Below the pieces are notes generated by a model, which saw only the letters and a list, made by a program, of their open reading frames with translations, did no database searches and had not been told where the DNA came from. DNA of 64,000 nucleotides from Sulfurimonas sp. (GTDB lineage: Bacteria > Campylobacterota > Campylobacteria > Campylobacterales > Sulfurimonadaceae): NCBI RefSeq assembly GCF_028714975.1, contig NZ_JAQTLH010000008.1:1-64000 (forward strand). Reading direction: 5' to 3'. A program made the position numbers and the translations under genes. Positions within the stretch are counted from its first letter, which is position 1. Every line of letters begins with the position of its first letter. Positions 10,639-36,347 of this stretch are shown here, one piece after another.

Positions 10639-10748
10639 CAATCACCTCTAATAACCCTAATCTTTTATATGACATTTTGTCATATTTTTGCACACCTGAA
10701 AATTTAAATAGTAAAATAGTGCTAATTTATTAAAGGTTGGTATGTATT

Positions 10749-11894: not shown

Positions 11895-12245
11895 ATATCG
11901 CTACAAGTCTATATTTTCAGGGCAATAAAAGAAAGTGACAAGAATGACGAATACTCTAAATTTATAATTTCATCTATAAAAGATATTTTTTCAACCCCTA
12001 CGGACAAAGCATTTTCTAAAGTTTCTGAAAAAATTGAAGATTCAAACGATTTAATTAATCTCACCAAAGCAGGGGAATTGATTAAATTATTGAAAGAAGT
12101 TCAAGCTAAAAAATTCTACTGAGACATAAGAACCAAATTATTTTATGTATTGTTTAAAATCAATTTCTTCCGTGCGCAACAACTCTTAATATTCACAATA
12201 GAGTATATCTTGTAAGATTATGACTTCCAATAAAAGGTGCTACAA
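11860..12245 (+). other. Transposon left end with three putative TnsB sites
   Basis: Sites share TTCCA-N6-NNNGCTAYAA: L1 11866-11886 (weaker), L2 11886-11906 and L3 12225-12245. L1 and L2 abut with a 20-bp period and L3 lies about 320 bp further in. All three point inward, and the right end carries the mirror-image set. Three left and four right sites match the Tn7 layout. L3 ends 5 bases before the ATG of the TnsE-like gene, so binding there could affect that gene. Confidence 0.8.
11895..12122 (+). pseudogene. Startless 75-codon reading frame inside the left end
   Basis: An open frame from inside site L2 to a TGA at 12120-12122 has no ATG, GTG or TTG at a sensible start. Its translation (AIKESDKNDEYSKFIISSI...NLTKAGELIKLLKEVQ) has the amphipathic, lysine-rich look of real protein. 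It is probably the C-terminal remnant of a gene truncated by the end. No family is recognised. From 12123 to 12224 I see nothing else. Confidence 0.4.
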
Positions 12246-12250
12246 AATAA

Positions 12251-14050
12251 ATGAAAAATGTTTTTATAAATACCAATATACCTACAGTCGATAATTTTCC
12301 AAAAGATGATAAGCTCAGAGTTGTGTGGGCTTATGGTGCAGTATATAAAAATACTGGGACAACTAGGGTGCCTGAAATCTATGTGATGTTAAAAGAGATA
12401 GATTCTAACGGAGCGATAAGCAGCGCACAAATCTTTAGAAGAATTTCTGTCGCGCAGCTTGATATAGTAAGATATATGACTATTTGGAAAGGAAATCGCA
12501 GAACTACTGATTTTTGGAAATCGTTTGACAATAATTATGTAGAAAACCAACTATTTTTTCTTGATGCAAATACAGCTACCTCTATAAGCTTTACAGAGAA
12601 AAGAAAAAATACTGATTATGGTTATTTTCCTCCATATAGGTATAAAATCGATAAAATTGATAATCCGAAAGACTACTATAGTTTTGCGAATGCTACATTT
12701 ACGAAAATAGAGGCTTTTAATGGAATAACTGTCATTGTTCCATCAATGGAGTTGCTAACTTCAACATATGTACCACAGGAGCAACAAATTAGATATAAGC
12801 TTATTCAAAGAGATTTAGATGATGTTCTTGATGAATATATAAAAAGCAGTAGTACAGATGGAAGTAAATATATAGTTGAATTATATGAAAGAAAAAATGA
12901 ATCAAACATATCTTTTTTAGCCTATGCAAAATTTAACTTGGTGACTAGGCAACGACTTAAAAAATTAAGAGCCAGCATAGAGACAGGAAGCCCTTACCCT
13001 GAAAGATATCCGGTTGTTCTGCCTTATCATCCTTCCGAATTATATTTACAGGGAGATGGCATCTGGTTAGATGAAGAAACTTTTTTTATGTTTAGAATAA
13101 ACCAATACTCATTACCAATAGATAATGAAATAGAATCTTACACACAAGAATTGGAGTTCGAAACAGATGAATCAAAAAAAGAAAATAGAAGTTATGTCAG
13201 AGTGCCTCAAAATTTAGATGACAATGAAATACCAGTAACAAATGAACACAACCCACACGGCAGGAATGCAGCGCAGCACATAATATCTGAAGTTTCAGTT
13301 TTAAACCCAAATAATGGTTCCATAAAACACCGAAGAGATGTGCTAAACATACCCATTAATAATAACATTAATATTGATATTGATATAGAAAATACCGAGG
13401 ATATCAATCAGATATCTTCCGCCCAATCAGATCAGGCAACTGATTCCAAAAATACGGCAGGCATTATAATTGATGAGCAGGATAAGTCTCATCTAAAGCA
13501 ATCAGAAGTTCTAGGAATGGTTATAGATGCACTTGAGTATATTAGAGATAATGCAATTGATATTTCTAGTGATGAAAGCAATCTTGATATTCTAGATATA
13601 TTGTTTGTAGATGAAGAGTGCGGATTAAGTGCGACGCAGACAGCAACACAATTTTCAAGAGTTTTGAAAAAGGCAAAAAAAGAAACTAATTTATGGGTAA
13701 AAAAGAGAAAAATTCAAAATCATAAAACTATTTTTTTAGGCTTTAGAAATTACATGCTCATAAAGGTTGTATTGAGTAATGGAAAATATGCATACTTGTT
13801 TGAGATTGATAGAAAAGATGAAAACGAGAGTTTTCTTGGAATGATATTTAACGTTGGTGGTGAAATTCATAATGGAGTACTTGTGGACTTATTATATAAG
13901 ATCATGGAAGAGCAAGGTGTTGTTAAAAAAGTAAAATTATCTGGATTAAAAACAATAACATTTAGGCATCAAACTAATAAAGAAGAGAACCTGAATGATA
14001 ATATTCAAAGTGCACTGAAAAAAGCTATAAAAAATGGTTTATTTAGTTGA
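12251..14050 (+). CDS. Probable TnsE-like transposition targeting protein
   Basis: A 599-residue protein with three parts. The N-terminal half has the pattern RVVWAYGAVYKNTG...EIYVMLKEI and VPSMELLTSTYV, ending in PVVLPYHPSELYLQGDGIWL. An acidic, Asn-rich linker covers about 330-430. The C-terminal domain contains FRNYMLIKVVLSNGKYAYLFEIDR. By eye this parallels Tn7 TnsE, which directs insertion to replicating DNA and conjugal plasmids through the sliding clamp. It begins directly inside left-end site L3 and is far from tnsABC, unlike Tn7. The assignment rests on remembered motif order, not an alignment; otherwise it is an unknown cargo protein. Confidence 0.5.
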   Translation: MKNVFINTNIPTVDNFPKDDKLRVVWAYGAVYKNTGTTRVPEIYVMLKEIDSNGAISSAQIFRRISVAQLDIVRYMTIWKGNRRTTDFWKSFDNNYVENQLFFLDANTATSISFTEKRKNTDYGYFPPYRYKIDKIDNPKDYYSFANATFTKIEAFNGITVIVPSMELLTSTYVPQEQQIRYKLIQRDLDDVLDEYIKSSSTDGSKYIVELYERKNESNISFLAYAKFNLVTRQRLKKLRASIETGSPYPERYPVVLPYHPSELYLQGDGIWLDEETFFMFRINQYSLPIDNEIESYTQELEFETDESKKENRSYVRVPQNLDDNEIPVTNEHNPHGRNAAQHIISEVSVLNPNNGSIKHRRDVLNIPINNNINIDIDIENTEDINQISSAQSDQATDSKNTAGIIIDEQDKSHLKQSEVLGMVIDALEYIRDNAIDISSDESNLDILDILFVDEECGLSATQTATQFSRVLKKAKKETNLWVKKRKIQNHKTIFLGFRNYMLIKVVLSNGKYAYLFEIDRKDENESFLGMIFNVGGEIHNGVLVDLLYKIMEEQGVVKKVKLSGLKTITFRHQTNKEENLNDNIQSALKKAIKNGLFS

Positions 14051-14297
14051 AAAATAATGTTATTTATATGGACAAAAAGATATAATGGTGCAATGCTTTA
14101 TTTTTGTGTGATGGCTAAGTAAAGCAGAATATTATTATGCTTGGTAATGATATTTTATTTCAAGTTGTGGCATTGTATCGGAGTTTAAATTAAATGTAAA
14201 TAAAGTTTAAATAAAAATCTTTAAAAATAAGGATTCGCTTCTTCGCCATTATAGAATGCTGATATCAAAATTTAAACCAAGCATACAAAGGTTTAAA

Positions 14298-14516
14298 ATG
14301 AGCAGAGTGTCTGTTTCAAAACATCCAGATGGATGGAAAGCAAAAATTGCTGGCAATGAGCGAGCAAGCAAGGTATGTACTACACAAGCTGAGTGTAGAG
14401 AGTTTGGTATAGGTTTGGCAAAAAAATTAGGTGCTGAATTTACACTCCATGGTGAAAATGGTCGTATTCGTGAGAAGAATTCTTATGGTAATGACCCTAA
14501 AAGTATAAAAGGGTAA
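14298..14516 (+). CDS. DUF2188-family small protein
   Basis: A 72-residue protein with the DUF2188 pattern: SVSKHPDGWKAKIAGNERASKVCTTQAE...HGENGRIREKNSYGNDPKS. The start at 14298 has AAAGG upstream and removes a non-conserved extension from 14256. The function of the family is unknown. It lies 4 bases before the next gene, so the two are probably co-expressed. The gap 14051-14297 is AT-rich with no clear feature. Confidence 0.75.
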   Translation: MSRVSVSKHPDGWKAKIAGNERASKVCTTQAECREFGIGLAKKLGAEFTLHGENGRIREKNSYGNDPKSIKG

Positions 14517-14520
14517 GTGT

Positions 14521-14865
14521 ATGGATTGTTCTAATATTCAGAAAATTACAGATGTGACAGATCAGGTTGGCTATGATGATACTAATAGTGGTGGGCGTGG
14601 TGATTCCAAATTGGTTAGTTGTGGACAAGATGGTGGTTATAATGAGTTAAAAGATAAGTTTATCAAATATTTTAATGGTGTTACTCAAGAGTCATATGTG
14701 GCAAAATTAATGTGTGAATGTTGTAAAAAAATGAAGCCAACTGGTAAAGAAAAAGTGCTTTGGGCAGATTTTTACAAATGTATGCTATCAAAAGTCACAA
14801 ATGAAACACCAAACACACTTAAAAAGCTTCAAGAGCTTATTAAGTGGCATGAAAAAAGAGAATAG
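14521..14865 (+). CDS. Hypothetical protein paired with the DUF2188 gene
   Basis: 114 residues, not recognised. The first 35 residues are polar and Gly/Asp-rich. The rest is helical with a Cys cluster (KLMCECCKKMKP) and a later YKCML, so metal binding is possible. No signal peptide or membrane segment. Its 4-base spacing to the DUF2188 gene implies a two-gene unit. The gap to 15030 holds short AT-rich inverted repeats only. Confidence 0.5.
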   Translation: MDCSNIQKITDVTDQVGYDDTNSGGRGDSKLVSCGQDGGYNELKDKFIKYFNGVTQESYVAKLMCECCKKMKPTGKEKVLWADFYKCMLSKVTNETPNTLKKLQELIKWHEKRE

Positions 14866-15030
14866 TTAAATAAGTTTTAGCCAGTTTCTGCTGGTTAAAA
14901 CTTCAGAATATTTTTAGGTCTGCCATCGTTAAAGGTTTTTTTTATTTAAGCTTTTATAGAAAAAACATAATAAATAAAAAATATTTTTAGATATTCTGTA
15001 GCGCTTGCTACTTTAGAAAAAGGACATTAT

Positions 15031-18000
15031 TTGAAACTCTTGATACTACATATAAGTGATTTACACTTTAAAGATAATGCAGATAACAGCGCTATCTCAA
15101 AAAGTAAAAATTTAGTCGATGCAATAAAGAATAAAACATTCAGTATAGCACATGTTTTTATTGTAGTTACGGGAGATATGGCTTACTCTGGAAAAGAGGA
15201 GGAGTTTGATCTGGTATATAATTATCTACAAGACATAAAAGAAAAGCTGAATAATGTTAATAATAGGCTAAAAATAGAGTTTATATTTAGCCCAGGAAAT
15301 CACGACTGTGATTTTTCAGATTTAAATCAAGAGGAAGTAAGGGAGATTCTTCGTTCTTCGGTATTGAGCAAACAGGATGATGTAAAACAATCTGTAGCTG
15401 AGCAGATAACTTTTGTTCAGAACAACTATTTTGAATTTATTAAAAAGTTTGATTCGTATCAATATATCAATCAGGATTTATCAAATAATTTATTTACAAA
15501 ATATGAATATGAAATAGATGGTTTCAAAATTTCATTTAATGCTTTTAACACTGCATGGATGTCTTCAAAAAATGAAAAGCAATCAGAAATGATATACCCT
15601 CTTAATTTAATAGGTAAAGTTAAAATTGAAAGATGTGAGGCTAATTTAAAAATAGCAATGTTTCACCATCCTTTTCATTGGATGCAACATCAAAATATCA
15701 GAGTGTTTAAAGAGTTCGTTAAAAACAATAACGACATTGTTTTTACAGGACATGAGCACACTGTGAGTGCAAACACTACTGAAGATATATTAAACTCATC
15801 AAATATAATTTATATTGAAGCAGGAACTATACAAGATAGCCACAACGAACTTGAGAGTAGTTTTAACCTTATCGAATATGATACAAGTAATAATGAACCT
15901 ATTTTACTTAACTCTTATAAATGGGAAAATGATGATTATAAGCATCATGTTGAAAAGGATATTTCTACAAATATTGATGGACAAAAAAAGATATTTGAAT
16001 TAAAAACTGAACAAAAAGAGAAGATTTCAAGACTACAAATAAAGATAAATCATCCAGAAAAAGATAATGTACAGTTGTATGATTTATTTGTATATCCTAA
16101 TGTCAAAAGATTAAACATTGCTGGCGATTTGACGAGAAAACAGTTTTTGGAAATATCTTCGAAGGATATTGTAAGCAAAGATACAATAGGTCATAATATT
16201 GTATATGGAGAGGACAACTCAGGAAAAACTACACTCTCACATGTTTTTCAAGACAATCTAATAAAAGATAAAGAGATTGTAACCATTATAATATGTAGCA
16301 GGGAATTTAAAAGCAATATTAATATCAAAACAATTGAAAAAATAATTCGACAGTCTTTTAAAAGACAATATATAACCAATGATAAAGTGTTTTCAGAGTT
16401 TGATAAATTAGATCGCTCTAAAGTTTTATTAGTTGTCGAAGATTTTCATAGATGCAGTGGAAATAATGAATATAAAAGTTTGATTATTAACACCCTTTTA
16501 AAGATGAAGTATCAAAATATAATTATAACAGCAAATGATTCATTGCAAATGGAGGCAACTAGTGAAACTGAATTGTCAAAAACCTTAAGTGAGTTTAACC
16601 ATTTTGAAATTTTAGAGTTTGGCCATAAATTAAGAGATAAGCTTATAAAAAAATGGATAGGACTTGGTAGAGAATATGACATTGAAAAAATGGAGTTATC
16701 AAACAGAGTTAGAAGTGTACGTAAACATATATCAAAGACAGTAGGCTTTAATATTGTAAAGGCATATCCTCTTTATTTAATTACATTACTTCAAGCAATG
16801 GAAATTCAAAATACTTCACTTGATAAGAGTGCCCTTGGACACTATTATGACTTTTTAATTCTTCAAAGTATAAAAAGTACAGACGGGCTAAAAAATATTG
16901 AACAAAAAGATATTAATACTGTCTATACTTATTGTTCAGAACTTGCTTTCCAAATGTTTATAGACAGGCAGCATGAGTTTACATTATCAGAACTGGAAGA
17001 ATTTGATGTAGATTATAAAAGAAAGAAAGACTTCTTCCCAAATTACAGTCTCAAAGACAGAGCAATAAAAACTACACTTCTTGTTAATCATGATGATAAA
17101 TATAAATTCTCACAAAAATATATATACTATTTTTTTGTAGCTCATTACTTCTCTAAACATATTGACAAGGGAGAGATTACAGATATTATTAAAGCTATGA
17201 CTCAACGTTTATATAGAACTGAGTTTTCAAATATATTAATGTTTATTTTACATCTTACACCAAAGACAGATATTATTAATATGATCCAAGATGAGGCAAA
17301 TAAACTATTTTCAGAAATTGAAGAATTTAGCTTTTCTAAAGATGAGCTACAGAAAATAAATTCTTGTGTTAAAAAAGATGTAGATAGTTCTTTGCGCTTG
17401 GAGAATCGAAGTGTAGACGAATCAAGAAGTAGAGAAGTAGAAGAAGATGAAGTTAGTAGCAATATTGAAAAGCATATCTATTATGATGATAGAGATGAAG
17501 CAGATTACAATGAGGAAATAAAACAACTCGATTTTTATAAAAAAATAAACCTCGCTTTTAAAATAATTGAAATTTTAGGTGAGATTACTAAAAGTTATTC
17601 CGGTACTTTAGATGGTGAGCCTAAAGCTCAGTTAGTTCAATCAGTATACTCATTAGGTCTGAGAAGTTTAAAAACTTTTATTAGTCTTTTTGAAGAAGAA
17701 CATGAACAACTTGTAGAACATATTCGACAAATTATTGTCAAAAAAAATAAGGTAACAGCGGATAAAATAGATGAATCTGTCCAAGGTATTATTTTTGGAC
17801 TAGCTTCATCTATTGCATTGAGCATTGTTAAGAAAATTTCTAAATCTGTTGGAACACAAGATCTTAATCATCTTTATAAGAGGATGCATGCTAACAATAA
17901 AGACAATATTGCTTACCATATTTTAAAAATAGCTATAGACCTTGATTTTCAAGGTGGGCTGAATGAGCAAGAGATAATAGGACTTTTTAAAGAATTAAAA

Positions 18001-18162
18001 ATACAAAAGAATGTATTGCCAAATTCTACCCTTAGAAACTTGGCACTTGAGCATCTTTATATGTTTGAGACATCAATATCTAGAAAGACTTCTTTATGTA
18101 CTAAATTGGAAATTGATGCCAATGACGCCAAAAAGCAACTTTCAAAGCAGATAAAATTATAG
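15031..18162 (+). CDS. Metallophosphoesterase-STAND-like NTPase fusion, candidate defence protein
   Basis: 1043 residues. The N-terminal 300 form a calcineurin-like phosphoesterase with a complete metal site: HISDLHF (Asp10, His12), VVTGDMAYSG, SPGNHDCDF, MFHHPFHW and FTGHEHT. The middle holds a P-loop NTPase, with Walker A GEDNSGKTT at about 393 and a Walker B-like KVLLVVEDFHR at about 465. A long helical C-terminal half with an acidic linker (about 790-830) follows. This effector-switch-sensor order is that of STAND-type antiviral proteins. The start is TTG with AAAGGA 8 bases upstream. It is single-gene cargo, and no identical named system is recalled. Confidence 0.7.
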   Translation: MKLLILHISDLHFKDNADNSAISKSKNLVDAIKNKTFSIAHVFIVVTGDMAYSGKEEEFDLVYNYLQDIKEKLNNVNNRLKIEFIFSPGNHDCDFSDLNQEEVREILRSSVLSKQDDVKQSVAEQITFVQNNYFEFIKKFDSYQYINQDLSNNLFTKYEYEIDGFKISFNAFNTAWMSSKNEKQSEMIYPLNLIGKVKIERCEANLKIAMFHHPFHWMQHQNIRVFKEFVKNNNDIVFTGHEHTVSANTTEDILNSSNIIYIEAGTIQDSHNELESSFNLIEYDTSNNEPILLNSYKWENDDYKHHVEKDISTNIDGQKKIFELKTEQKEKISRLQIKINHPEKDNVQLYDLFVYPNVKRLNIAGDLTRKQFLEISSKDIVSKDTIGHNIVYGEDNSGKTTLSHVFQDNLIKDKEIVTIIICSREFKSNINIKTIEKIIRQSFKRQYITNDKVFSEFDKLDRSKVLLVVEDFHRCSGNNEYKSLIINTLLKMKYQNIIITANDSLQMEATSETELSKTLSEFNHFEILEFGHKLRDKLIKKWIGLGREYDIEKMELSNRVRSVRKHISKTVGFNIVKAYPLYLITLLQAMEIQNTSLDKSALGHYYDFLILQSIKSTDGLKNIEQKDINTVYTYCSELAFQMFIDRQHEFTLSELEEFDVDYKRKKDFFPNYSLKDRAIKTTLLVNHDDKYKFSQKYIYYFFVAHYFSKHIDKGEITDIIKAMTQRLYRTEFSNILMFILHLTPKTDIINMIQDEANKLFSEIEEFSFSKDELQKINSCVKKDVDSSLRLENRSVDESRSREVEEDEVSSNIEKHIYYDDRDEADYNEEIKQLDFYKKINLAFKIIEILGEITKSYSGTLDGEPKAQLVQSVYSLGLRSLKTFISLFEEEHEQLVEHIRQIIVKKNKVTADKIDESVQGIIFGLASSIALSIVKKISKSVGTQDLNHLYKRMHANNKDNIAYHILKIAIDLDFQGGLNEQEIIGLFKELKIQKNVLPNSTLRNLALEHLYMFETSISRKTSLCTKLEIDANDAKKQLSKQIKL

Positions 18163-18222
18163 TTTTATCTGCTTTAATGAATTAAGGCGTAAACCCAATA
18201 TAAACAAGAATAAGGATAAATG

Positions 18223-18423
18223 ATGGCAAAAATAGTATATACACTAAAAGAGCATCTACGGACAGGTGAATATCATTTTTTTGAAGCAACACCAAATAAT
18301 GATGGTACATGCTCAGCAAAACAAAAGTCAATATGCTGAGTTTGGGAGAGAGGTATGCGGGGATTGCATAAAATAGGTCCAAAAATAACAATATTATTTG
18401 CTGATGTCAAAAGTCAAAGTTAA
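18223..18423 (+). pseudogene. Small 65-codon ORF interrupted by an in-frame TGA
   Basis: ATG at 18223 with AAGGA upstream reads MAKIVYTLKEHLRTGEYHFF and stops at TGA (18337-18339) after 38 codons. The same frame continues for 26 coherent codons (VWERGMRGLHKIGPKITILF...) to TAA. The simplest reading is a nonsense mutation in a small cargo gene. The TGA follows a Cys codon, but no selenocysteine element was identified. Nothing else is evident between 18163 and 18560. Confidence 0.5.
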
Positions 18424-18560
18424 TTGTATTTTCTCAAAGTATTATGTACAAAGTTAAAAAACTAGAATTCATTGTATGAAATTCAGTAGTCCTGTAGTGA
18501 TAAATATAAATTTTTAGGTAGTTGCCATATGTGTAAACTTATTATGTTCATTTGTAAACA

Positions 18561-19172
18561 TTAAGAGGTTTCATACAACTCTTTATTTATAGCTTCATAA
18601 TTATATTGTTTATCTTTAGCATTAGCCGTATATCGTTTATTAAAATGATTAAGAGTAAACCCACCGCTGCTAGGTGTTATTAAGAGATTGTTATCATGCC
18701 CTAATATAGTAAAAATTACCCATGGGTCCATTTCTTTCCTTATAGAAACTATAGCATCAGAAGGATATTGCGTGTCTTCGTTTATAACTAAATTTTTAAA
18801 AGGCTCAATAATTTCAATAACTAGATTGAAGGTATTGCTTGGAAATCTATCAATATCTATCTCTAGTAGAGCTTTATTTATATGTTTTTGCTTTGCTTTA
18901 GGAAACAAAGGAATCAACTCTTTTGTAAACATAACTATTCCTAATGGATGAAAACCTTTAAAATCAGATAGAGGCACACTTTCTATAATTTTTCTTTTTT
19001 TTCCATCATAACTAGTTCTCCACTCTGAACCATCTCGATGATATGAATTATGACTTCCATTTAATGAGCCAACATCATAATAAAGATCATTATTTATACG
19101 TTTAAAGTAGCCAATAACCCTTTTTTCACCATCATATTCGTTTTTTGTAATAATATACATTTCTTTTTTCAT
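18561..19172 (-). CDS. Hypothetical protein
   Basis: 203 residues, not recognised. It starts MKKEMYIITKNEYDGEKRVIGYFKRINNDLYYDVGS and is a soluble alpha/beta-type sequence without signal peptide or membrane segments. It is the third of three minus-strand genes with short gaps, behind a 90-residue protein and the NUC1 nuclease. Co-expression with the nuclease is possible, but no function can be assigned. Confidence 0.5.
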   Translation of the reverse strand: MKKEMYIITKNEYDGEKRVIGYFKRINNDLYYDVGSLNGSHNSYHRDGSEWRTSYDGKKRKIIESVPLSDFKGFHPLGIVMFTKELIPLFPKAKQKHINKALLEIDIDRFPSNTFNLVIEIIEPFKNLVINEDTQYPSDAIVSIRKEMDPWVIFTILGHDNNLLITPSSGGFTLNHFNKRYTANAKDKQYNYEAINKELYETS

Positions 19173-19188
19173 GTTTTATGCTTAAATC

Positions 19189-19461
19189 TTACTCAAACGG
19201 ATTCCGAACAATTTTAGCTGTTAACACTTCTATCTCATCAGGCAGCTCTTTTTCGTTCTCAAGCTTTTTGGCTATTGCGTCAATCTGCCGTTTTATAGCA
19301 CAGATTTTTTCTAGTCCTATTTTGTCTCTTGTTATATCAATTCCACCGGAGATAGATACTCTGTCAGTTCTGTTTTCAAATGTTAAATCCTCGATTATTA
19401 CAACCTCTGATTCATTTTCAAAAGTGTCAATCGTTTCAATATCTTTTATATCATTTGACAT
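19189..19461 (-). CDS. Hypothetical small acidic protein
   Basis: 90 residues, strongly acidic at the N terminus (MSNDIKDIETIDTFENESEVVIIEDL), with a helical centre (LEKICAIKRQIDAIAKKLENEKELPDE). No signal peptide. It lies 4 bases after the NUC1 stop and 16 before the next gene. Its acidity and position beside a nuclease would suit an inhibitor, but the nuclease is exported, so this is weak. Confidence 0.5.
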   Translation of the reverse strand: MSNDIKDIETIDTFENESEVVIIEDLTFENRTDRVSISGGIDITRDKIGLEKICAIKRQIDAIAKKLENEKELPDEIEVLTAKIVRNPFE

Positions 19462-19465
19462 CTAT

Positions 19466-20221
19466 TTATCCTCTCTTCTTTGGAGTCGGAAGTTCTAGCA
19501 TTTTTTCTTTTTGTGTTTGAATTAATTTTGGAAAGTAATTTATGCCGCTTATCTTTTCAAGCTCTGCAATAGATATTATCTTATAACTATCTTCGGGCAT
19601 ATTGTTTACAATATACACCGCTCCTTTTTGCTGTTTTGGGCTAAAGACTGCTTTATATACTTGAGTAGGAACCAATACATTGTTTCTGCCTATAGCTTTT
19701 AAATTGCCGCCTTGATATAAAGCTCCTGTTATTACAAATACGCCGCCCTCTTTATTTGCCAAATGTCTTGTAGCTCCCTCAATGGCAGACCATATTCCTC
19801 TATTGGAAGTACCGTCTTGAGGAATCATGTTTGCCAAAGAAAATGATTCTGCTTGAGCATTAACGCTTCCCATATCGGCAGATGGAGCTAAATGACCTCT
19901 ATCGTATCCTGAACGAGCATAATCGCTTAGTTCTGCTCTCTCGTTTGCAGGAAGTTTGCTCTCCGGATGGAACTCGTCTTTTCTTGAAATCTTTACGGCT
20001 ATTTTTTCTCTTGTTAGATGCTCTGCTGAATATAGGGCAGATTTGGTTATGCCGGAATGAATAATACCGAAACCCTCGTAGCAAACTTCTTGTGTTTTTT
20101 TAGAAAGTTTTTCATTGACTATATCCGGTGCTGTTCCGTCAAAATAGTGAGTAGAGCAAGAAGTTTGTGCGGCATATAGTGAAATAGTAAGTAGTGATGT
20201 GCTTAGTAGTTGTTTTAGCAT
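19466..20221 (-). CDS. Exported DNA/RNA non-specific endonuclease (NUC1 family)
   Basis: 251 residues with a signal peptide (MLKQLLSTSLLTISLYAAQT). The beta-beta-alpha-metal nuclease motif DRGHLAPSADM is at about residue 105, with the metal-binding Asn in SLANMIPQ about 25 residues later. Family members degrade DNA and RNA outside the cytoplasm. In Campylobacter jejuni, nucleases of this family on integrated elements reduce natural transformation. It is one of two unrelated exported nucleases on this transposon and heads a three-gene minus-strand unit. Confidence 0.92.
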   Translation of the reverse strand: MLKQLLSTSLLTISLYAAQTSCSTHYFDGTAPDIVNEKLSKKTQEVCYEGFGIIHSGITKSALYSAEHLTREKIAVKISRKDEFHPESKLPANERAELSDYARSGYDRGHLAPSADMGSVNAQAESFSLANMIPQDGTSNRGIWSAIEGATRHLANKEGGVFVITGALYQGGNLKAIGRNNVLVPTQVYKAVFSPKQQKGAVYIVNNMPEDSYKIISIAELEKISGINYFPKLIQTQKEKMLELPTPKKRG

Positions 20222-20389
20222 TGTTTTGCCTTTTAAATTTATTGTGGAATTATTGCATTTTTTTGATTTAATAGAGTTTGTTCTGTATGGCTTATTAAAA
20301 TCAAACTAATTAAAACATTGCTTTGTTGCATTCAGCTTTTAAATCCTTTTTTTATGATACTATTTTTAAAACTCAATAAGAGGTGACTT

Positions 20390-20563
20390 ATGAAAATTTT
20401 ACTCTCTATTTTTTTTACAATACTAATCTTACAGGCAAATGATACATCAAAACTTTCTTCGCAGGTAAATGTAGTAGAAAAAGAAAAAATCTGTAAAGAC
20501 ATTAAATTTGAAGAAATTCAACAAAGAGGTTGTTGCTCACAGTATCAAATAGATGCTTGCTAA
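20390..20563 (+). CDS. Small exported cysteine-containing protein
   Basis: 57 residues. The N-terminal signal-like segment is MKILLSIFFTILILQANDTS; the mature part has four cysteines (EKICKD, RGCCSQ, DAC). The start has AGGTGA 5 bases upstream. It is too short for confident homology but looks translated and exported. It lies between the two exported nuclease genes, divergent from NUC1. Function unknown. Confidence 0.45.
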   Translation: MKILLSIFFTILILQANDTSKLSSQVNVVEKEKICKDIKFEEIQQRGCCSQYQIDAC

Positions 20564-20683
20564 TAACAAAAATAACTTCATAAAAACCCTTTAATAATGA
20601 ATTTTGTGTTTTATTGTATCTAAATTATTTATAAATTAATTTTGAGATAAGCTATAATACTGATGTCTAACAGAGGGTCAAGC

Positions 20684-20995
20684 ATGAGATTAAAGTTTCA
20701 AATAGCATTTTTTGTAACGCTATTCATTTATTTAGCTATTTTATTTTCTGGAGAGTATGTAAGTGTCTACTATACTTACTATCTACTACCACTGCTGGCT
20801 TTTTTAGCACTTTTTGCTTTTGGAAGTCTAAGGAAAATCAATCAAACTGCAAAATTGGTTTTTGTATTGACATTATTTTTACTAATTCTCACGTTGGCAA
20901 CGGTTAGTTATGTGGGAGCTTATTTGCCAACTATCGTTGGTATAATATTTATGGTGTCTGGCATCATAATGTACTTGACGAAGAAAAAAGGGTAA
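20684..20995 (+). CDS. Small multi-span membrane protein
   Basis: About 103 residues, mostly hydrophobic, with about four transmembrane segments (FQIAFFVTLFIYLAILF, YYTYYLLPLLAFLALFAF, LVFVLTLFLLILTLA, YLPTIVGIIFMVSGIIMYL). The start at 20684 has GAGGG upstream; an ATG at 20663 would add seven residues. No family recognised. It precedes the EndA gene by about 85 bases, which hold only a weak 28-codon frame. Confidence 0.5.
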   Translation: MRLKFQIAFFVTLFIYLAILFSGEYVSVYYTYYLLPLLAFLALFAFGSLRKINQTAKLVFVLTLFLLILTLATVSYVGAYLPTIVGIIFMVSGIIMYLTKKKG

Positions 20996-21081
20996 TGTAT
21001 GCAAATAGATTTTTCAGAAGTTATGTTTTTTATTGGTTCTCGAAGCATGCTTGACTTACTTGCTGGCGCTTTGGTTAAAGG

Positions 21082-21825
21082 ATGAGTATCATGAGAGCTA
21101 TTTTTATACTACTATTTTTAGTTTTATCTCTATTTGCACAAAACGAGTCATTTTCTAACTCTAAAAAAGAACTCCGCAAAATTCATCGAGATCATCAAGT
21201 TACCTTTTATTGCGGCTGCAAATATAACTATACCAATAAAGACAACATGATTGACAGAGATTCATGTGGTTATGTTCCCCGTAACGAATATACAAAAAAA
21301 GGGAAGAAGAACGAACGTGCAAGACGTATAGAGTGGGAGCATGTCATCCCGGCTGAAAATTTCGGTCGTCAGTTTAGTTGTTGGAGAGATGGTGCATCTG
21401 AGTGTGTTGATTCAAAAGGTAAAGAATTCAAAGGGCGTAAATGTTGCGAAAAGGTAAGCAAAGAGTTTCGTATCATGCAAGCCGATATGCACAATCTTCA
21501 ACCTGCTATTGGAGAATTAAACGCAGATAGAAGCAATTTTAGGTTTGATTTTGAATTGCCAAAGCAGGGACAATATGGCGAGTGTAAGTTTGAAGTTGAT
21601 TTTAAAGCTGACAGAGCAAAAGTGAGAGAAGAGCTTCGTGGAGTGATTGCAAGAACCTATCTTTATTTCAATAAGCAATACGGTATGAAGCTCTCGACAC
21701 AGGAGCTTAAAAAGTTCGAAGTTTGGGATAGGCAGCATCCACCTTCAGAGTGGGAAAAAGAACGTAATCACAGGATTGCTAAGAAGCAAGGAAATTTAAA
21801 TGAGTTTATAGTAAAAATTTTTTAA
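21082..21825 (+). CDS. Exported endonuclease I (EndA/Dns family)
   Basis: 247 residues with a signal peptide (MRAIFILLFLVLSLFA). The EndA/Dns signature is complete: IEWEHVIPAENFGRQ with the catalytic His, and MHNLQPAIGELNADRSNFRF. Family members are periplasmic or secreted, often disulfide-bonded, DNases; several Cys pairs are visible. Vibrio Dns and a Dns-family nuclease on Campylobacter element CJIE1 both inhibit natural transformation. The true start may be the ATG at 21091. Confidence 0.93.
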   Translation: MSIMRAIFILLFLVLSLFAQNESFSNSKKELRKIHRDHQVTFYCGCKYNYTNKDNMIDRDSCGYVPRNEYTKKGKKNERARRIEWEHVIPAENFGRQFSCWRDGASECVDSKGKEFKGRKCCEKVSKEFRIMQADMHNLQPAIGELNADRSNFRFDFELPKQGQYGECKFEVDFKADRAKVREELRGVIARTYLYFNKQYGMKLSTQELKKFEVWDRQHPPSEWEKERNHRIAKKQGNLNEFIVKIF

Positions 21826-21908
21826 TAAGACCATTATCTGTGATTATTATTTATTGACTAATACAGTTACTATAGAAAGGGTCTCTTACCTAATGCTTGC
21901 TTGACATA

Positions 21909-22070
21909 ATGAACGATAGTCTTAATAGAATTAAAAATATTGATATTTTAGAAATTGGTGATGTATTGTTATTCAGCAGTAGAACAAAGTATATAAGTAA
22001 AAAAATAAAAACTAATACAAATGGAAACTATTCTCATGCTGCTATTTATATAGGAGGGTGTGGGTTATGA
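21909..22070 (+). pseudogene. N-terminal fragment of a papain-fold (YiiX/NlpC-P60-like) protein
   Basis: 53 codons read MNDSLNRIKNIDILEIGDVLLFSS...GNYSHAAIYIGGCGL and stop. The pattern GDVLLF plus YSHAAIYIG is that of permuted papain-fold hydrolases, which are normally at least three times longer. It is probably a truncated relic. The rest of 21826-22290 is AT-rich with no further gene seen. Confidence 0.5.
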
Positions 22071-22290
22071 GATTTTTGATTAGAGCATTATTAGGACGAA
22101 GGACGACGGTTTTTTCAAGGATAACACACTTTAGTGTATAAATTTCTATACATAATAAGATAAAAATATTTAATTAATATATATAATAACCAATGAATAT
22201 CATTTATATGATACAATAGGTATATAAATTGCTAATGTTAATTAAAAAAATATGGTAAAATTCCACAAAAATTTTAGAAGGAGTCTTGTT

Positions 22291-22722
22291 ATGGATATGT
22301 ATAGAGTTGATCCCGTCGCACTTGCGCAGAGTTATGACATTGAAGTTGTAGGGACTCCTTTTATTGATGTAGATGGAAGTATTGAAAAGAAAGATACTAA
22401 AATTGTACTCATGTATAATACTAACTCTCATCCAAATAGACAAAGATTCACTATTGCTCATGAACTAGGTCATTTTATTGCTGGACACCTTAATGGTTCA
22501 ACTAAAATGTTTAGAGATCAATCTAAAAACTTTACGATAGATAATTATGATATTCAAGAAGTTGAAGCTAATCAAATAGCAGCTCAAATTCTAATGCCAC
22601 AGGAAACAGTAAAACATCTTATAGAGGATGTGGGCATTAGTACTATTGAAGAGTTGGCAAGTATCTTAGATGTTTCGACAGGTGCTATGCATTATAGATT
22701 AAAAAACTTAGGCATTATCTAA
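22291..22722 (+). CDS. ImmA/IrrE-family metalloprotease
   Basis: 143 residues. The zinc-protease motif AHELGHFIAGH lies at about 68-78, with downstream EVEANQIAAQILMP providing the third-ligand Glu. A C-terminal helix-turn-helix-like stretch (IEELASILDVSTGAMHYRLKNLGI) follows. ImmA proteins cleave HTH repressors to induce mobile elements or toxin systems. The start at 22291 is chosen for its AGAAGGAG site. No XRE repressor is adjacent; the next gene starts directly after the stop. Confidence 0.85.
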   Translation: MDMYRVDPVALAQSYDIEVVGTPFIDVDGSIEKKDTKIVLMYNTNSHPNRQRFTIAHELGHFIAGHLNGSTKMFRDQSKNFTIDNYDIQEVEANQIAAQILMPQETVKHLIEDVGISTIEELASILDVSTGAMHYRLKNLGII

Positions 22723-23097
22723 ATGAATGGCGACATTGAAATAGACAAACCTCTTAATGCTTACGAGGCACAGCTAGATAACTCTAAGCTTAAAGATGAG
22801 GAGCAATTAAGAAGTTTTAAAACAGAGTTTTTTAAATTAATAAAGATAATGATAGTGGTTATGTTTGGTATAGCATATACTTTTATGCTATCAACTATAG
22901 CAAATAACCCAAATACTGGAGCCACTGTAATTGTTGTTACTTCTCTTATGGTTCCAACAGTTATAACATTAGCGCTTGTAAGATTTTTATATGCTAAAAA
23001 TACTCCAAGTGAAGAAAAGACAGCACCATCTGTTGGTTTTAACTTTTTTAAAGAACTACTCCAAATAATAAAAGATTATGTAGCAAAAAAACAATAG
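22723..23097 (+). CDS. Two-span membrane protein next to ImmA
   Basis: 124 residues. A polar acidic N terminus of about 45 residues is followed by two transmembrane segments (IMIVVMFGIAYTFMLSTIA and ATVIVVTSLMVPTVITLALVRFLY) and a short cytoplasmic tail. The ATG directly follows the protease stop codon, implying coupled translation. No family recognised. A membrane partner or target of the protease is a reasonable guess only. Confidence 0.55.
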   Translation: MNGDIEIDKPLNAYEAQLDNSKLKDEEQLRSFKTEFFKLIKIMIVVMFGIAYTFMLSTIANNPNTGATVIVVTSLMVPTVITLALVRFLYAKNTPSEEKTAPSVGFNFFKELLQIIKDYVAKKQ

Positions 23098-23108
23098 CTA
23101 CATATAAA

Positions 23109-23396
23109 TTGAAAATGCTCTCCAATGAGCTACGCACACTAAAAAGTGAGCCAAACTATTGGTGTAGTTCAATGAACCAATTTGGTAACCTTATTGAAGA
23201 ATATTCATCGTTAGCATCAGCATCACCTTCTCTACGTACACTGGAAAAAATCAGTATTACGGTTAGCTCAAATATTCATCTAAATTCATTTATGTATGAA
23301 TCTATCCTTGACCTAACAATTGAACATCTTATCAACTTATATGATGAAGTTTGTAGTCTATCTGCGGGAGCTATCAATGCCAACACAAATTCATGA
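23109..23396 (+). CDS. Hypothetical protein, third gene of the ImmA cluster
   Basis: 95 residues from TTG at 23109 (or 93 from the ATG at 23115), predicted helical and soluble (MLSNELRTLKSEPNYWCSSMNQFGNLIEEYSS). It begins 11 bases after the membrane protein gene, so the three genes form one unit. Not recognised. Confidence 0.4.
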   Translation: MKMLSNELRTLKSEPNYWCSSMNQFGNLIEEYSSLASASPSLRTLEKISITVSSNIHLNSFMYESILDLTIEHLINLYDEVCSLSAGAINANTNS

Positions 23397-23475
23397 CAAA
23401 TCAAAGTAGATAAATAAAATACAATTTACCTCAGAAAAAGAATTCATTTAAGAGAAATCCTTATTCCTGAACAAT

Positions 23476-23510
23476 ATGACAAAATGCAATATTTTTAAGC
23501 TTTTTGTCAT
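23476..23510. terminator. Inverted repeat after the ImmA cluster
   Basis: ATGACAAAA (23476-23484) pairs with TTTTGTCAT (23502-23510) and is followed by TTTTCAT. It probably ends the ImmA unit and insulates the restriction operon. Confidence 0.45.
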
Positions 23511-23537
23511 TTTTCATATAAAATATTGCAATATAAG

Positions 23538-23553
23538 TAGTATTATAATACTA
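23538..23553. promoter_or_regulatory. 16-bp perfect palindrome over a TATAAT box
   Basis: TAGTATTATAATACTA is a perfect palindrome containing TATAAT at 23544-23549. It lies about 140 bases upstream of the HTH gene that opens the restriction operon, and is a candidate operator for that regulator. A second -10-like TACAAT is at 23657-23662. Confidence 0.4.
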
Positions 23554-23690
23554 ATAATTTATTCTTTTATCTAATAATAAGTTATTTTAATATCTATATA
23601 AAATGCTAAAATAATATTATTAAGTATTTAAATATATAAAATTATTATTTTTATGGTACAATAAAGATAGTTTATTTACAGGTGGGATAA

Positions 23691-23966
23691 GTGGATTTGC
23701 CAGAATTATTTATATCGGTTCAGAACAATATCGCTACAAAAGAAAGAAGGAAGAATATTTCTTCTAAAGAAATGGCAAACAGACTACATTGTTCAAAAAG
23801 CACATATGATAAGTATTTAACTGGTAAATTACAACCCAAAGCCGTAAACAATATTATGTGTTTATTATCTATGTTAACAGATGATGATCTCTTAAGAACA
23901 GTCAAGCAATGGAAAGAAAATTCTGGGTGTGAAAAGAAAACTGCTAATATAAAGGATGCAGAATGA
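23691..23966 (+). CDS. HTH regulator of the restriction operon (controller-like)
   Basis: 91 residues from a GTG start with AGGTGG upstream. A helix-turn-helix is visible at about 25-45 (SSKEMANRLHCSKSTYDKYLTGKLQP), of Cro/CI-like type. It is the first gene of a co-directional run of six, in the place controller (C) proteins occupy in many restriction systems, including LlaI. It overlaps the next ORF by ATGA. Confidence 0.65.
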   Translation: MDLPELFISVQNNIATKERRKNISSKEMANRLHCSKSTYDKYLTGKLQPKAVNNIMCLLSMLTDDDLLRTVKQWKENSGCEKKTANIKDAE

Positions 23967-24163
23967 GTAAAATACCAGATATGAAAAAAGATAAAAATAA
24001 AACAAGTGATTTCTCTTTGGTGTATGCTGATGTGTTAAAAGGTATAGGTATTAATGAGGCTATCTATTATCAACGTATTCTTGATTTTATGTCATTGCTG
24101 ACAATAAATTCCTCACATTTAAATTCGATCATAATAACCATGTATAATCCAAGGGATAAATAA
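23963..24163 (+). CDS. Small ORF in the restriction operon
   Basis: 66 residues (MSKIPDMKKDKNKTSDFSLVYADVLKGIGIN...), not recognised. The ATGA overlap with the HTH gene and the 8-base gap to the first methyltransferase argue that it is translated. It may be a regulator subunit or a truncated domain. Confidence 0.45.
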   Translation: MSKIPDMKKDKNKTSDFSLVYADVLKGIGINEAIYYQRILDFMSLLTINSSHLNSIIITMYNPRDK

Positions 24164-24171
24164 TAACAAAG

Positions 24172-25539
24172 ATGATAAAAAAATCAATTCAACAGAATGA
24201 TTACTCAATTTTTAAAACAATGCAGTATTTAGGCTCAAAACATAGGTCAATCACTAAAATTATTGAGCAGAGTATTCTTTATTCCAAAAATGGCTATATA
24301 CTAGATTTATTTGCTGGATCAACAACAGTTTCTCAAGCATTCAGCAGTATTGGTAAAAAAACAATATCTAATGATATACAGCAATTTAGCAAAGCTTTTG
24401 CAAATGCAACATTACAAATTAATTTAGAAGAAAAAGATTTGATTTCATCTTTAGACAAGTTAGATAAATTAATTTCAAATCATGAAGAATATAAATATTA
24501 TAATACTTTTAAAAAATTCACAAACAAAGAAGAAAAGCTACTTGATTCCAAAAATATTAGTGAATTATTATCATTATATGCTGCCTTTCCTCTTATTTGG
24601 AATATTAATAGAAAAGAAACAATTGAAATTCAAAAGCTACACCATAGGTTTAAAAAAAATATAGATAAACCAGGATTTGAAATTGGACCAATTACGACAT
24701 TGCATTATGCTGGTTCTTATTTTGGTATTAAACAATCTTTAGATATTGACTTTTTAAGGACAATGATTGAACAAGAAAAACGCCAAGGAGAAATAAGCAA
24801 TTGGCAGTACAATATGTTTTTAACATGCCTTTTAACTGTAGTCTCAAAAATTGTTTTTTCGGCTGGTAAGCATTTTGCTCAACCTGTTAAGGCTACAGGA
24901 ATAATTAATACCCCAGTGTTAAACAAAAGATTAATTATAGATAGATCATATAGTGTAGTAGAGCTATTTAAAGAAACTGTAACCAGTTTTATTCAATATT
25001 CTAAAAATACTTCTCATTGTGATAAGAATATTGCGTTGAATAAGTCAATGGAAGAGCTTTTAAAAAGTGATTTTGACTTGCCAGTTATTGATATAATTTA
25101 TGCAGATCCACCTTATACAGCACAGCAATATTCGAGATTTTATCATATTCCTGAAATAATTATTGAGTATAAAATTCCAAGCCTTCAAGTACATAAAGGA
25201 TCTATAACTAAAGGGATATACCCTAACAATAAATACAAATCTAATTTTTGCTCTAAAAATAAAGTAAAGGATGCTTTTAAAGATCTTTTTTTATTGACAA
25301 AAAAACTTGATTCTGTACTTATTTTAAGCTACTCTGAATCAAAAAATAGTTCAACCGGTAATGATAGAATGATAGATTTTAATTCTTTAGATAGATTGCA
25401 AAAAGATATTATTCCTGATTATACTTCATTAAAAATTGAATTTGATTTCGAGTATCGACAATTGAATAAATCAAAATTTGTTGATAAAAACAAAGATGAC
25501 AAGGAAATACTAATTGTTTACAGCAGGAAATTAAAGTGA
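24172..25539 (+). CDS. D12-class DNA adenine-N6 methyltransferase 1
   Basis: 455 residues. Motif order is that of D12/alpha-class enzymes. Motif X is YLGSKHRS (about 18), motif I is LDLFAGSTTVSQAF (about 45), and motif IV is IYADPPYTAQQYSRFYH (about 313). A long target-recognition insert lies between I and IV. It should methylate adenine to protect host DNA. With its tandem partner it suggests an asymmetric site needing one enzyme per strand, as in type IIS and LlaI/FokI-like systems. Its 3' end overlaps methyltransferase 2. Confidence 0.9.
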   Translation: MIKKSIQQNDYSIFKTMQYLGSKHRSITKIIEQSILYSKNGYILDLFAGSTTVSQAFSSIGKKTISNDIQQFSKAFANATLQINLEEKDLISSLDKLDKLISNHEEYKYYNTFKKFTNKEEKLLDSKNISELLSLYAAFPLIWNINRKETIEIQKLHHRFKKNIDKPGFEIGPITTLHYAGSYFGIKQSLDIDFLRTMIEQEKRQGEISNWQYNMFLTCLLTVVSKIVFSAGKHFAQPVKATGIINTPVLNKRLIIDRSYSVVELFKETVTSFIQYSKNTSHCDKNIALNKSMEELLKSDFDLPVIDIIYADPPYTAQQYSRFYHIPEIIIEYKIPSLQVHKGSITKGIYPNNKYKSNFCSKNKVKDAFKDLFLLTKKLDSVLILSYSESKNSSTGNDRMIDFNSLDRLQKDIIPDYTSLKIEFDFEYRQLNKSKFVDKNKDDKEILIVYSRKLK

Positions 25540-26813
25540 TAGAAAGATACCTAGGAAACAAATCATCAATAATAAATCATATTATGAAAGAAGTTGATAA
25601 GTTATGTAATAAAGGAGATTATGTTTGTGATATTTTTTCTGGGACCTTGTCTGTATCTATAAATCTGAAAAAAAGTGGATACAGAGTTATTTCTAATGAT
25701 ATTAATCGTTTTTCATATTGTTTTGGTAGAAGTCATTTAATTGCTAATAATATTCCGAAAATAGATTTTGAAAGTTTGGGAATTGATTATAACTTATATG
25801 CAGAAAATGCGATTGCAAAAGTAAAATTGATAGAAAAGGGTGTTGGTTATAATTTTTTGAATGATAAGAAAGAAGAAAACAGCTACGTAGATTTAATAGT
25901 CTTATTAACTTATCTGGATTCAATTTCTGAGAAAGATATTGATCCTGAACATAGAAAGAGTTTCTTTTTTGATTATTACACAGAAGAAGGAAAATATAGT
26001 AAGTTCGTGAGTCAAAGAGGTAGCGAAGGTAATCGAAAGTTTTTCACTCCATCAAATGGTTCTAAAATTGATTTATATTTAAATAAAATTAGAGAGTGGC
26101 ATAAAAATAATTTATTACTAGATGATCTATATTATCTTCTTTTATCCACTATTTCAGAATCGGTAGAAAAAGTTAGTAATACACAAGGCACATTCCATGA
26201 TTTTCCAAGAACTAAATATGATTCTAGGGCCTTTAAAAAATTAGAATTAAGAGCTCCTAAATTTGACAATATTTTATCTGATATTGATGGACATATTCTA
26301 GGTAAAGAACGTGATTCAATGGAGTTTATAAAAGAGGTTCCATCACATAAACTTTTATATATAGACCCTCCGTATAATTTTAGACAATACACATCATATT
26401 ATTTTATGCTTAACTTAATTTGTGATTATTGTGAAATTCCAGATTTAAATAAATACTTCAATGAAGTTAAATATGTAAGAGGGCAAAATATGGATAAGAA
26501 TTTTATTTCATCTTTCTGTAAAAATTCTGAATTTATTTCATCATTACAAAAACTAATTGAAAATGCTGATACGGAATGGATTGTTATGAGTTATTTTAAT
26601 GGTAGAAATCATAAATCTGCTACTGCAGGAGATAAAGGAACTATTCTAAATGAATTAGAGCAGTTTTTTCAAACAGACTTATTTGAATCTAACTCTCTAA
26701 AAATAAAACCTATAAAAAGAAAAAATTACCAAAGTTATGGTGGACATAAAGCTCTAGAAGTTAATGAGTTATTGTATATAGTTAAAAAAAGGATGAAAGA
26801 TGAGATGGTTTGA
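25536..26813 (+). CDS. D12-class DNA adenine-N6 methyltransferase 2
   Basis: 425 residues from a GTG overlapping the previous stop. Motif X is RYLGNKSS (about 4), motif I is CDIFSGTLSVSINL (about 32), and motif IV is YIDPPYNFRQYTSYYF (about 277). It shares architecture with methyltransferase 1, including the unusual QY after DPPY, but differs in the middle region expected to read DNA. It overlaps the McrB-like gene by 14 bases. Confidence 0.9.
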   Translation: MIERYLGNKSSIINHIMKEVDKLCNKGDYVCDIFSGTLSVSINLKKSGYRVISNDINRFSYCFGRSHLIANNIPKIDFESLGIDYNLYAENAIAKVKLIEKGVGYNFLNDKKEENSYVDLIVLLTYLDSISEKDIDPEHRKSFFFDYYTEEGKYSKFVSQRGSEGNRKFFTPSNGSKIDLYLNKIREWHKNNLLLDDLYYLLLSTISESVEKVSNTQGTFHDFPRTKYDSRAFKKLELRAPKFDNILSDIDGHILGKERDSMEFIKEVPSHKLLYIDPPYNFRQYTSYYFMLNLICDYCEIPDLNKYFNEVKYVRGQNMDKNFISSFCKNSEFISSLQKLIENADTEWIVMSYFNGRNHKSATAGDKGTILNELEQFFQTDLFESNSLKIKPIKRKNYQSYGGHKALEVNELLYIVKKRMKDEMV

Positions 26814-28536
26814 TATTTTAAATAGCACGGCCTTTAAAGAATGGATAATTGCAACAGGAAGCGGAGGAACTTTACCGCAAGGAGAATTTAAATTAGATCC
26901 TTTTGGATCTTCAATGCGTAAATTTAATAACGCTCATACATGGCTTTCTGAACTTAATAATACTGGTGTTTTTAATCCATCAGGTAGAGAATCACAAGCA
27001 AAAAGCGATCTTGCAACAGCAGGATTTTTTATAGATGAGACGATATTTACCATATTAGGTCAAATGACAATTGATAAATGGGACGCTTTTGGTATTCCAG
27101 CAGGGGATGATGATTATGAAATCCATCGGTGTTTATTATTAGTAAATAATGCTATTTCTATTGGTGATAAACAATATCTTACATACTATAATCGATGGCT
27201 AAATCTACGAAAATTATTTGAGTATAATTTTTTAGTAACAAACAAAAGCTACTTATATTTGTTCTCATATTTTGATAAATATAGTAATGGATACAATCCT
27301 TTTAATGTAATAACTAGCTTGAAAATAAGTCAAGCATATTTTGATGCCAATATTGACTGGAACTTAATAAAGAATTACTATATAGACCCAGCAGTAGATA
27401 CTGCTGTAGATAAATATGAAAGCACTATTAATACATATACGGGGAGAGAAGGTCGTTCAAATATATGTATTGCTTATGAAATAATCTCTAAAGATGAAGC
27501 TGATAGAATTGATTTTATTAGCTCTTTAACAATGAGTCAGATATGTAAAGATAAATTAATAGAAATAAATGAAAATATAAAACCATTTGTCAATGCAAGT
27601 AATAAAATATATTATGGTCCTCCTGGTACCGGTAAATCTTATGAAGTAAATAAAATCACAAAACCACATAGGTTAATCAATCCAAAGAGAGTTGAAATAG
27701 TTACTTTCCATCCAGAGTATGATTATCATTCTTTTGTTGGAAGCTATAAACCAACAATGAAAAATGAAAAAATTTCTTATGAATTTATACCTCAGCCTTT
27801 TGCAAAAATTTATGTTTCAGCATGGCAAAATTTAGAAAATGAATATTTCTTACAAATTGAAGAAATCAATAGAGGAAATTGTGCTGAGATTTTTGGAGAT
27901 TTATTTCAGTTATTAGATAGAAACCCTGATTATAATGTTACAGCGGATGAAGATTTTAAAAAATATCTTCAAAGTGAATTAGGAATAGAGCATAAAGGTA
28001 TATTAGATGGTCAAATATCATTGCCTCCAAATTTAAATCTAATTGCAACAATGAATACTTCTGATCAATCACTATTTCCCATGGATAGTGCTTTTAAAAG
28101 AAGATGGAATTGGGTATATGTGCCAATTAAGTATGAGGAAGATTGCAATGATGTTTCAAAAGATTATTTAATTGAATTAGATGGATTAAATTATAAATGG
28201 CTAACATTTTTGGAAAAAATAAATAAAGAAATTTTCAATGCAACAGAAAGTCAAGATAAACAAATAGGTAATTGGTTTGTTACACCAAAACAAGGAAACA
28301 TCATTGATATTGAGACTATCGTCAATAAAGTTATCTTTTACCTATGGAATGATATTTTCAAAGATGAAGATGAGCATAATATTTTTAAAGTTACTGATGA
28401 TAAAGCTAGTGAATTTGGTATAGAAACAGATAAAAAAGTGATTACTTTCGAAAAATATTTTGAAGGTGAAGCTAGATATCGTATTCCAATATTAAAGTAT
28501 CTATTTAATGAAGTACTATCCGTGGAACCAATTTAA
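26800..28536 (+). CDS. McrB-like AAA+ NTPase, restriction motor subunit
   Basis: 578 residues. The N-terminal about 260 residues are a system-specific domain, presumably for DNA recognition. The AAA+ module has Walker A YYGPPGTGKSYEV (about 273), VTFHPEYDYHSFVGSYKP, Walker B FLQIEEINRGNCAEIFGD (about 350) and the McrB-type MNTSDQSLFPMDSAFKRRW. The MNT(S/A)D motif is typical of GTP-using McrB proteins. It is coupled to the nuclease gene downstream, with overlapping stop and start. Confidence 0.9.
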   Translation: MRWFDILNSTAFKEWIIATGSGGTLPQGEFKLDPFGSSMRKFNNAHTWLSELNNTGVFNPSGRESQAKSDLATAGFFIDETIFTILGQMTIDKWDAFGIPAGDDDYEIHRCLLLVNNAISIGDKQYLTYYNRWLNLRKLFEYNFLVTNKSYLYLFSYFDKYSNGYNPFNVITSLKISQAYFDANIDWNLIKNYYIDPAVDTAVDKYESTINTYTGREGRSNICIAYEIISKDEADRIDFISSLTMSQICKDKLIEINENIKPFVNASNKIYYGPPGTGKSYEVNKITKPHRLINPKRVEIVTFHPEYDYHSFVGSYKPTMKNEKISYEFIPQPFAKIYVSAWQNLENEYFLQIEEINRGNCAEIFGDLFQLLDRNPDYNVTADEDFKKYLQSELGIEHKGILDGQISLPPNLNLIATMNTSDQSLFPMDSAFKRRWNWVYVPIKYEEDCNDVSKDYLIELDGLNYKWLTFLEKINKEIFNATESQDKQIGNWFVTPKQGNIIDIETIVNKVIFYLWNDIFKDEDEHNIFKVTDDKASEFGIETDKKVITFEKYFEGEARYRIPILKYLFNEVLSVEPI

Positions 28537-30269: not shown

Positions 30270-30304
30270 TTCGCTTTCAAAAATAGGGTTGACAGATCAT
30301 AATG

Positions 30305-32679: not shown

Positions 32680-32680
32680 T

Positions 32681-33589: not shown

Positions 33590-33597
33590 TATTAATC

Positions 33598-36182: not shown

Positions 36183-36208
36183 ACTCTGTTTTCCTTGAAT
36201 TGGTAAGT

Positions 36209-36342: not shown

Positions 36343-36347
36343 CAGAT
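36343..36347 (+). repeat. Right 5-bp target-site duplication (CAGAT)
   Basis: Identical to 11855-11859 and directly outside the right terminus. The next bases, GCAGCGAACTTGAT, continue the comM frame. Confidence 0.93.

Follow-up and report, generated by a model that had tools for sequence, protein, structure and literature searches.

Mobile elements that interrupt comM in the Campylobacterota recurrently carry genes for predicted exported nucleases, and sequence comparison supports the view that such genes are rarer in the Tn7-like elements of the phylum that sit elsewhere. Two of them lie together in the window analysed here, a stretch of 64,000 nucleotides from a Sulfurimonas genome (contig NZ_JAQTLH010000008.1); the stronger result is the recurrence of the pairing within the phylum, which reaches beyond the coordinates of those two genes. 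We regard it as an even bet that comM-targeting elements in this phylum, whichever recombinase moves them, have convergently acquired, under selection, exported nucleases from four or more unrelated families as cargo: a two-step measure against curing, in which ComM is broken and incoming DNA destroyed, that would have been assembled many times independently.

In the Sulfurimonas genome, comM is split by a Tn7-like element (Table 1) whose ends are exact (TGTCACTTCC.../...GGAAATGTCA) and match as inverted termini (TGTCACTTCC / (rc) TGACATTTCC), and each end adjoins a copy of the 5-bp target duplication CAGAT. With the element taken out, the flanks join into an uninterrupted comM frame of 506 codons that runs through the CRCS region, and relatives with similar terminal sequences also sit in comM. 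All four required parts of a Tn7-like core were found: TnsA, TnsC (TniB) and TniQ were called by Pfam matches above the cut-off, and TnsB by Mu-transpos_C. Among the cargo, the DS8-type protein matches its NCBIfam model at 865 bits, above the cut-off. The 599-aa protein at the left end is common to the TnsF-type elements described below and has no Pfam or NCBIfam match; a weak TnsE_C match appears in its counterpart in genome G276 and in that counterpart only. The 110-aa membrane protein has no homolog among the other comM elements compared.

Table 1. Features of the interrupted comM locus and its Tn7-like element, in window coordinates
Feature	Position	Strand	Basis or remark
comM 5' part (about codons 1-374), interrupted	10737..11859	+	PF13541 + PF01078; frame restored
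Target-site duplication CAGAT, left copy	11855..11859		
Tn7-like element, 24,483 bp	11860..36342		Ends as given in the text
599-aa protein, candidate remote TnsE by position only	12251..14050	+	Homologs in G126, G305, G299 and G315 comM elements
DS8-type anti-phage protein (metallophosphatase + STAND NTPase)	15031..18162	+	NCBIfam NF053861; PADLOC PDC-S60
NUC1, predicted exported DNA/RNA non-specific endonuclease	19466..20221	-	PF01223; signal-peptide-like N-terminus
57-aa exported mini-protein, truncated GCCS protein (predicted)	20390..20563	+	Full-length homolog in G282
110-aa membrane protein of no assigned function	20663..20995	+	
EndA/Dns, predicted exported endonuclease I	21082..21825 (start probably 21091)	+	PF04231
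M78 peptidase (IrrE-like)	22252..22722	+	PF06114
Two adenine methyltransferases, D12 type	24172..26813	+	
McrB-like GTPase + McrC-like partner, restriction subunits	26800..30269	+	LlaJI-like module, named by analogy
TnsF-like comM target selector	30305..31600	-	Five homologs, all in comM elements; Acinetobacter homologs at 27-29% identity
TniQ	31597..32679	-	PF06527
TnsC/TniB	32681..33589	-	PF05621
TnsB	33598..35487	-	rve + Mu-transpos_C
TnsA	35484..36248	-	PF08722 + PF08721
Target-site duplication CAGAT, right copy	36343..36347		
comM 3' part	36348..36745	+	PF13335; frame restored

The two nucleases belong to unrelated families, and each is the sole member of its family in this genome. NUC1 (251 aa) matches PF01223 with E=5e-45 (154 bits against a cut-off of 23), carries the motif YDRGHLAPS with its DRGH core, and begins with MLKQLLSTSLLTISLYA followed by AQ. 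EndA (247 aa) matches PF04231 with E=1.4e-32 (113.7 bits against a cut-off of 25), falls below the cut-off of NCBIfam PRK15137, and contains the motif EWEHVIPAENFG and, in EWEHVIPA, the WEH signature; its best start is probably the second ATG, giving MRAIFILLFLVLSLFA followed by Q, with AAAGGA upstream. Both signal peptides are predictions made by eye and with a crude script rather than with SignalP. The initial annotation had placed two unrelated, exported nucleases in a single transposon that disrupts comM, and the family matches, the signal-peptide-like N-termini, the exact element ends and the restored comM frame bear it out, with export as predicted. Small exported proteins with an Excalibur or GCCS motif lie near nucleases in G276 (L118:12477-12701), G315, G346, G126, G282 and the window itself; that of the G282 comM element is a full-length GCCS homolog of the window's 57-aa protein and also lies near EndA. 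It is possible that these small proteins are partners or inhibitors of the nucleases.

Target choice is attributed to a 431-aa zinc-finger protein, which we call TnsF-like because its homologs within the phylum occur only in comM elements (five other genomes among 397 Campylobacterota, five of five inside comM-inserted elements) and because it resembles the Acinetobacter proteins at the identity given in Table 1. TnsF directs Tn6022 into comM (Faure et al. 2023, PMC10293859). A TnsF scan of the GTDB contig collection returned eight loci, all from Campylobacterota. On homology and this exclusive location, we think it rather probable that the element is a TnsF-guided, Tn6022-like branch of the Tn7-like transposons and, jointly with this, that its two exported nucleases serve as transformation inhibitors. 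With Tn6022 and AbaR of Acinetobacter it shares TnsABC, TniQ, a TnsF homolog and the insertion into, and inactivation of, comM; it differs in its Campylobacterota host and in its cargo of nucleases and defence genes, where AbaR carries antibiotic resistance. Its insertion point lies after about codon 374; near codon 295 is where several of its TnsF relatives in the phylum sit. These two points of entry for TnsF-type elements (~295 and ~370) flank the Walker B codons, and all three EndA-bearing TnsF-type elements are found at the later one.

A search for the ComM protein covered 397 Campylobacterota genomes, 36 of them in detail, and the inserts were retrieved and compared. The gene is split near codons 76, 222, 295 and 365-375, plus a few others, and 17 elements in as many genomes represent three recombination systems at about four insertion sites. 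TnsF-type Tn7 elements occupy comM in six genomes (the window's, G126, G234, G299, G305 and G315), a second Tn7 type without TnsF in another six (G276, G146, G029, G053, G073 and G323), and large tyrosine-recombinase elements in five (G282, G225, G238, G191 and G370). Some of the tyrosine recombinases show weak similarity, far below NCBI cut-offs, to GmtY/GmtZ of the Gamma-mobile-trio (GMT) islands, a likeness that does not extend to the window element. EndA is carried by the comM elements of the window, G299, G315 (Arcobacter caeni RW17-10), G276 and G282; NUC1 by those of the window, G146 (61% identity) and G238; SNase (PF00565) by those of G305 and G191; and a family with the signature GIDG...ExK by those of G126, G234 and G225. 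Thus EndA or NUC1 is present in 7 of the 17 elements and any of the four predicted exported families in 12, whereas none of the four was recognised in the elements of G029, G053, G073, G323 and G370. Every one of the six TnsF-type elements has such a gene (EndA in three, SNase in G305, the GIDG family in G126 and G234).

The comM pieces of G234 are on two contigs, but this genome was counted, its nuclease being found on that side of the comM 5' piece where the element is. G295 was left out, its comM pieces, a NUC1 fragment and EndA standing at the ends of different contigs, as was the EndA of G333, which lies far from the comM remnant. At the comM 3' junction of A. caeni (G315 C44, L030) there is a second, broken TnsA-TnsB copy, probably left by a further Tn7-like insertion that used this site too. 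In G053, apparently the same Tn7-like element, to judge by matching gene sizes, occurs both in comM (C1, L120) and on a 103-kb contig (C2, L137-L138).

The fourth family, with the fuller signature GIDG...AESK...QMS and a predicted signal peptide, comprises the proteins at L016:17163-17861 (G126 C23), L190:955-1626 (G234 C50) and L115:2265-2966 (G225 C1). It has no Pfam match, a PDB sequence search returned nothing, and Foldseek with its structural model gave no match at E<=0.001. VIA-align of the same model (mean pLDDT 72) reached Z scores of up to 8.6, the top chain being one without known function, below which many PD-(D/E)XK nucleases follow at Z 4-6.6; the model is thus suggestive of a PD-(D/E)XK-like fold with a moderate resemblance to restriction-type nucleases. 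Among its homologs in other places is the end of a polymorphic-toxin-like protein, and the family is apparently related to polymorphic-toxin nuclease domains. Besides the G126 protein, one further strong homolog was found among 200 genomes, and the family has been seen mostly in comM inserts. We flag it as an uncharacterised, exported, PD-(D/E)XK-like candidate nuclease family.

Whether comM-inserted elements are enriched for exported nucleases, a survey that the initial annotation had proposed, was judged against Tn7-like loci elsewhere. Searching 160 genomes from the families concerned for TnsB yielded 29 such loci that are not in comM. The loci, 1.03 Mb in all, were taken with flanks of at most 20 kb per side, as far as the contig reached, and the profiles and motifs used on the comM inserts were applied to them too; their 93 exported ORFs were covered in this way rather than by individual Pfam scans. 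Two of the 29 bear a nuclease: the G346 element has EndA next to it, and the G272 element has NUC1. When four nuclease motifs were scanned for as regular expressions, neither an SNase nor a GIDG protein turned up in the 29 loci. A NUC1 gene on contig C2 of G053 was removed from the control matches as lying outside the Tn7 copy. EndA or NUC1 is enriched in comM elements, at 7/17 against 2/29 (Fisher p=0.008) and across several independent lineages, in a small sample where comM targeting cannot be separated from the lineage of the elements. The Tn7 elements alone give 5/12 against 2/29 (p=0.016). Adding four further comM splits from one genus, without an EndA or NUC1 match, as negatives gives 7/21 (p=0.02), and adding a borderline control to that count gives p=0.05. 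With all four families the contrast becomes 12/17 against 2/29 (p=1e-5), a biased figure that overstates the case because the SNase and GIDG families were discovered by inspecting comM elements.

Against these counts it is very unlikely that the nucleases are chance passengers, taken from a pool shared by the phylum's mobile elements into a gene that happens to be a common insertion site. Quite apart from the Tn7 loci elsewhere, genome density would place about 0.09 nuclease genes in the inserts and 8 were observed, an expectation that ignores the preference of nucleases for mobile DNA. The small size of the sample speaks for such passengers, as does the pair of EndA and an Excalibur mini-protein common to the comM elements of G315 and G276 and to the non-comM element of G346, so one or more cassettes pass from element to element.

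Phylogeny points to repeated acquisition. When 31 EndA proteins are placed in a tree, those borne by comM elements (five) require at least four label changes and each falls in a clade with EndA from its own host group, which puts the separate entries of EndA into comM elements at four or more; the three comM-borne NUC1 proteins are likewise separate in their tree, with two to three label changes. This repeated, independent arrival of exported nucleases in comM elements of the phylum supports selection for their carriage. The benefit selected could in principle be the host's, through phosphate or nucleotide scavenging, or control of biofilm, by breakdown of extracellular DNA. CJE1441 of C. jejuni disperses biofilm (PMC4372405), the two nuclease families are widespread (61 and 96 of 397 Campylobacterota genomes), and the G+C content of the window's two nuclease genes (37-38%) is like that of the host, the remaining cargo standing at 27-32%. 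We nevertheless consider a host-benefit cargo quite unlikely, since it gives no reason why such genes should be concentrated in comM insertions that unrelated recombinases have made. Against a role as transformation inhibitors stand the five comM elements in which no nuclease was recognised and the occurrence of both families away from comM: EndA is also found on a Sulfurimonas plasmid and in Helicobacter prophages, NUC1 on plasmids, and the two Tn7-like elements outside comM have one or the other. The Sulfurospirillum plasmid pSulSP (NZ_CP118374.1, L112) holds a single copy of NUC1 along with several fragments of it, one of which lies next to a YHYH-domain protein.

The nucleases might instead form a layer of a defence island, acting in the periplasm mainly as a barrier to phage, plasmid and conjugative DNA, with any effect on transformation a by-product. 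Their company in the window (DS8, a restriction module and the M78 peptidase) fits this, as does the G146 comM element (C1, L122), where NUC1 is paired with a DS8 homolog 41% identical to that of the window. Tn7-like elements outside comM would gain equally from a barrier, yet only 2 of 29 have exported nucleases, and we know of no established role in phage defence for exported proteins of the EndA or NUC1 families; we therefore rate a defensive function as unlikely.

A block on transformation that protects the element is the best-supported reading, short of demonstration, and it leans on published work in other species. ComM is a helicase that helps to integrate heterologous DNA. In Acinetobacter baumannii, transformation rose about 300- to 1000-fold once AbaR had been removed and comM repaired (PMC7508600), and many elements, often carrying defence genes, strike comM in that species (PMC11472951). 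DNases with signal peptides on C. jejuni elements prevent natural competence, by the account given in PMC4372405 of earlier work (Gaasbeek 2009, 2010). Judging by homology and by the confinement of TnsF to comM elements, TnsF and TniQ would bring the transposase to comM; the insertion, whose break in the gene is plain, would inactivate ComM with the phenotype seen in Acinetobacter; and EndA and NUC1, by their families, their signal peptides and the C. jejuni precedent, would be exported to the periplasm or beyond and degrade DNA before or during its uptake. With fewer transformation events at the locus, an empty comM allele would less often take the place of the element.

ComEC and DprA are present in the window host and five relatives; E. 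coli also has both, so they are not diagnostic of competence. Within the Arcobacteraceae, Aliarcobacter butzleri is naturally transformable (PMC8308473), and we found no literature on natural transformation of Sulfurimonas.

Both halves of the arrangement are known separately, from the CJIE nucleases of C. jejuni and from AbaR in comM; the literature searched yielded no account of comM disruption and exported nucleases recurring together in unrelated elements. Compared by description, the CJIE1 dns and the CJIE2 and CJIE4 nucleases belong to the same phylum, are element-borne, have signal peptides and are published transformation inhibitors. They occur one per separate integrated element and are not known in comM, whereas the window has two unrelated nucleases on one element. 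IdeA of the Vibrio SXT-family ICEs is likewise a mobile-element DNase that inhibits transformation, on a conjugative element with another insertion site.

Theory holds that transformation allows cells to delete mobile elements and that the elements should be expected to counter it, and single cases are known. If our reading is true, the union of comM inactivation with exported nucleases across three recombination systems would make this conflict testable by comparison, and the transformability of environmental Campylobacterota would be predicted to be largely set by the occupant of comM. The recurrent pairing suggests that mobile DNA repeatedly evolves ways against the 'curing' of its host by DNA uptake.
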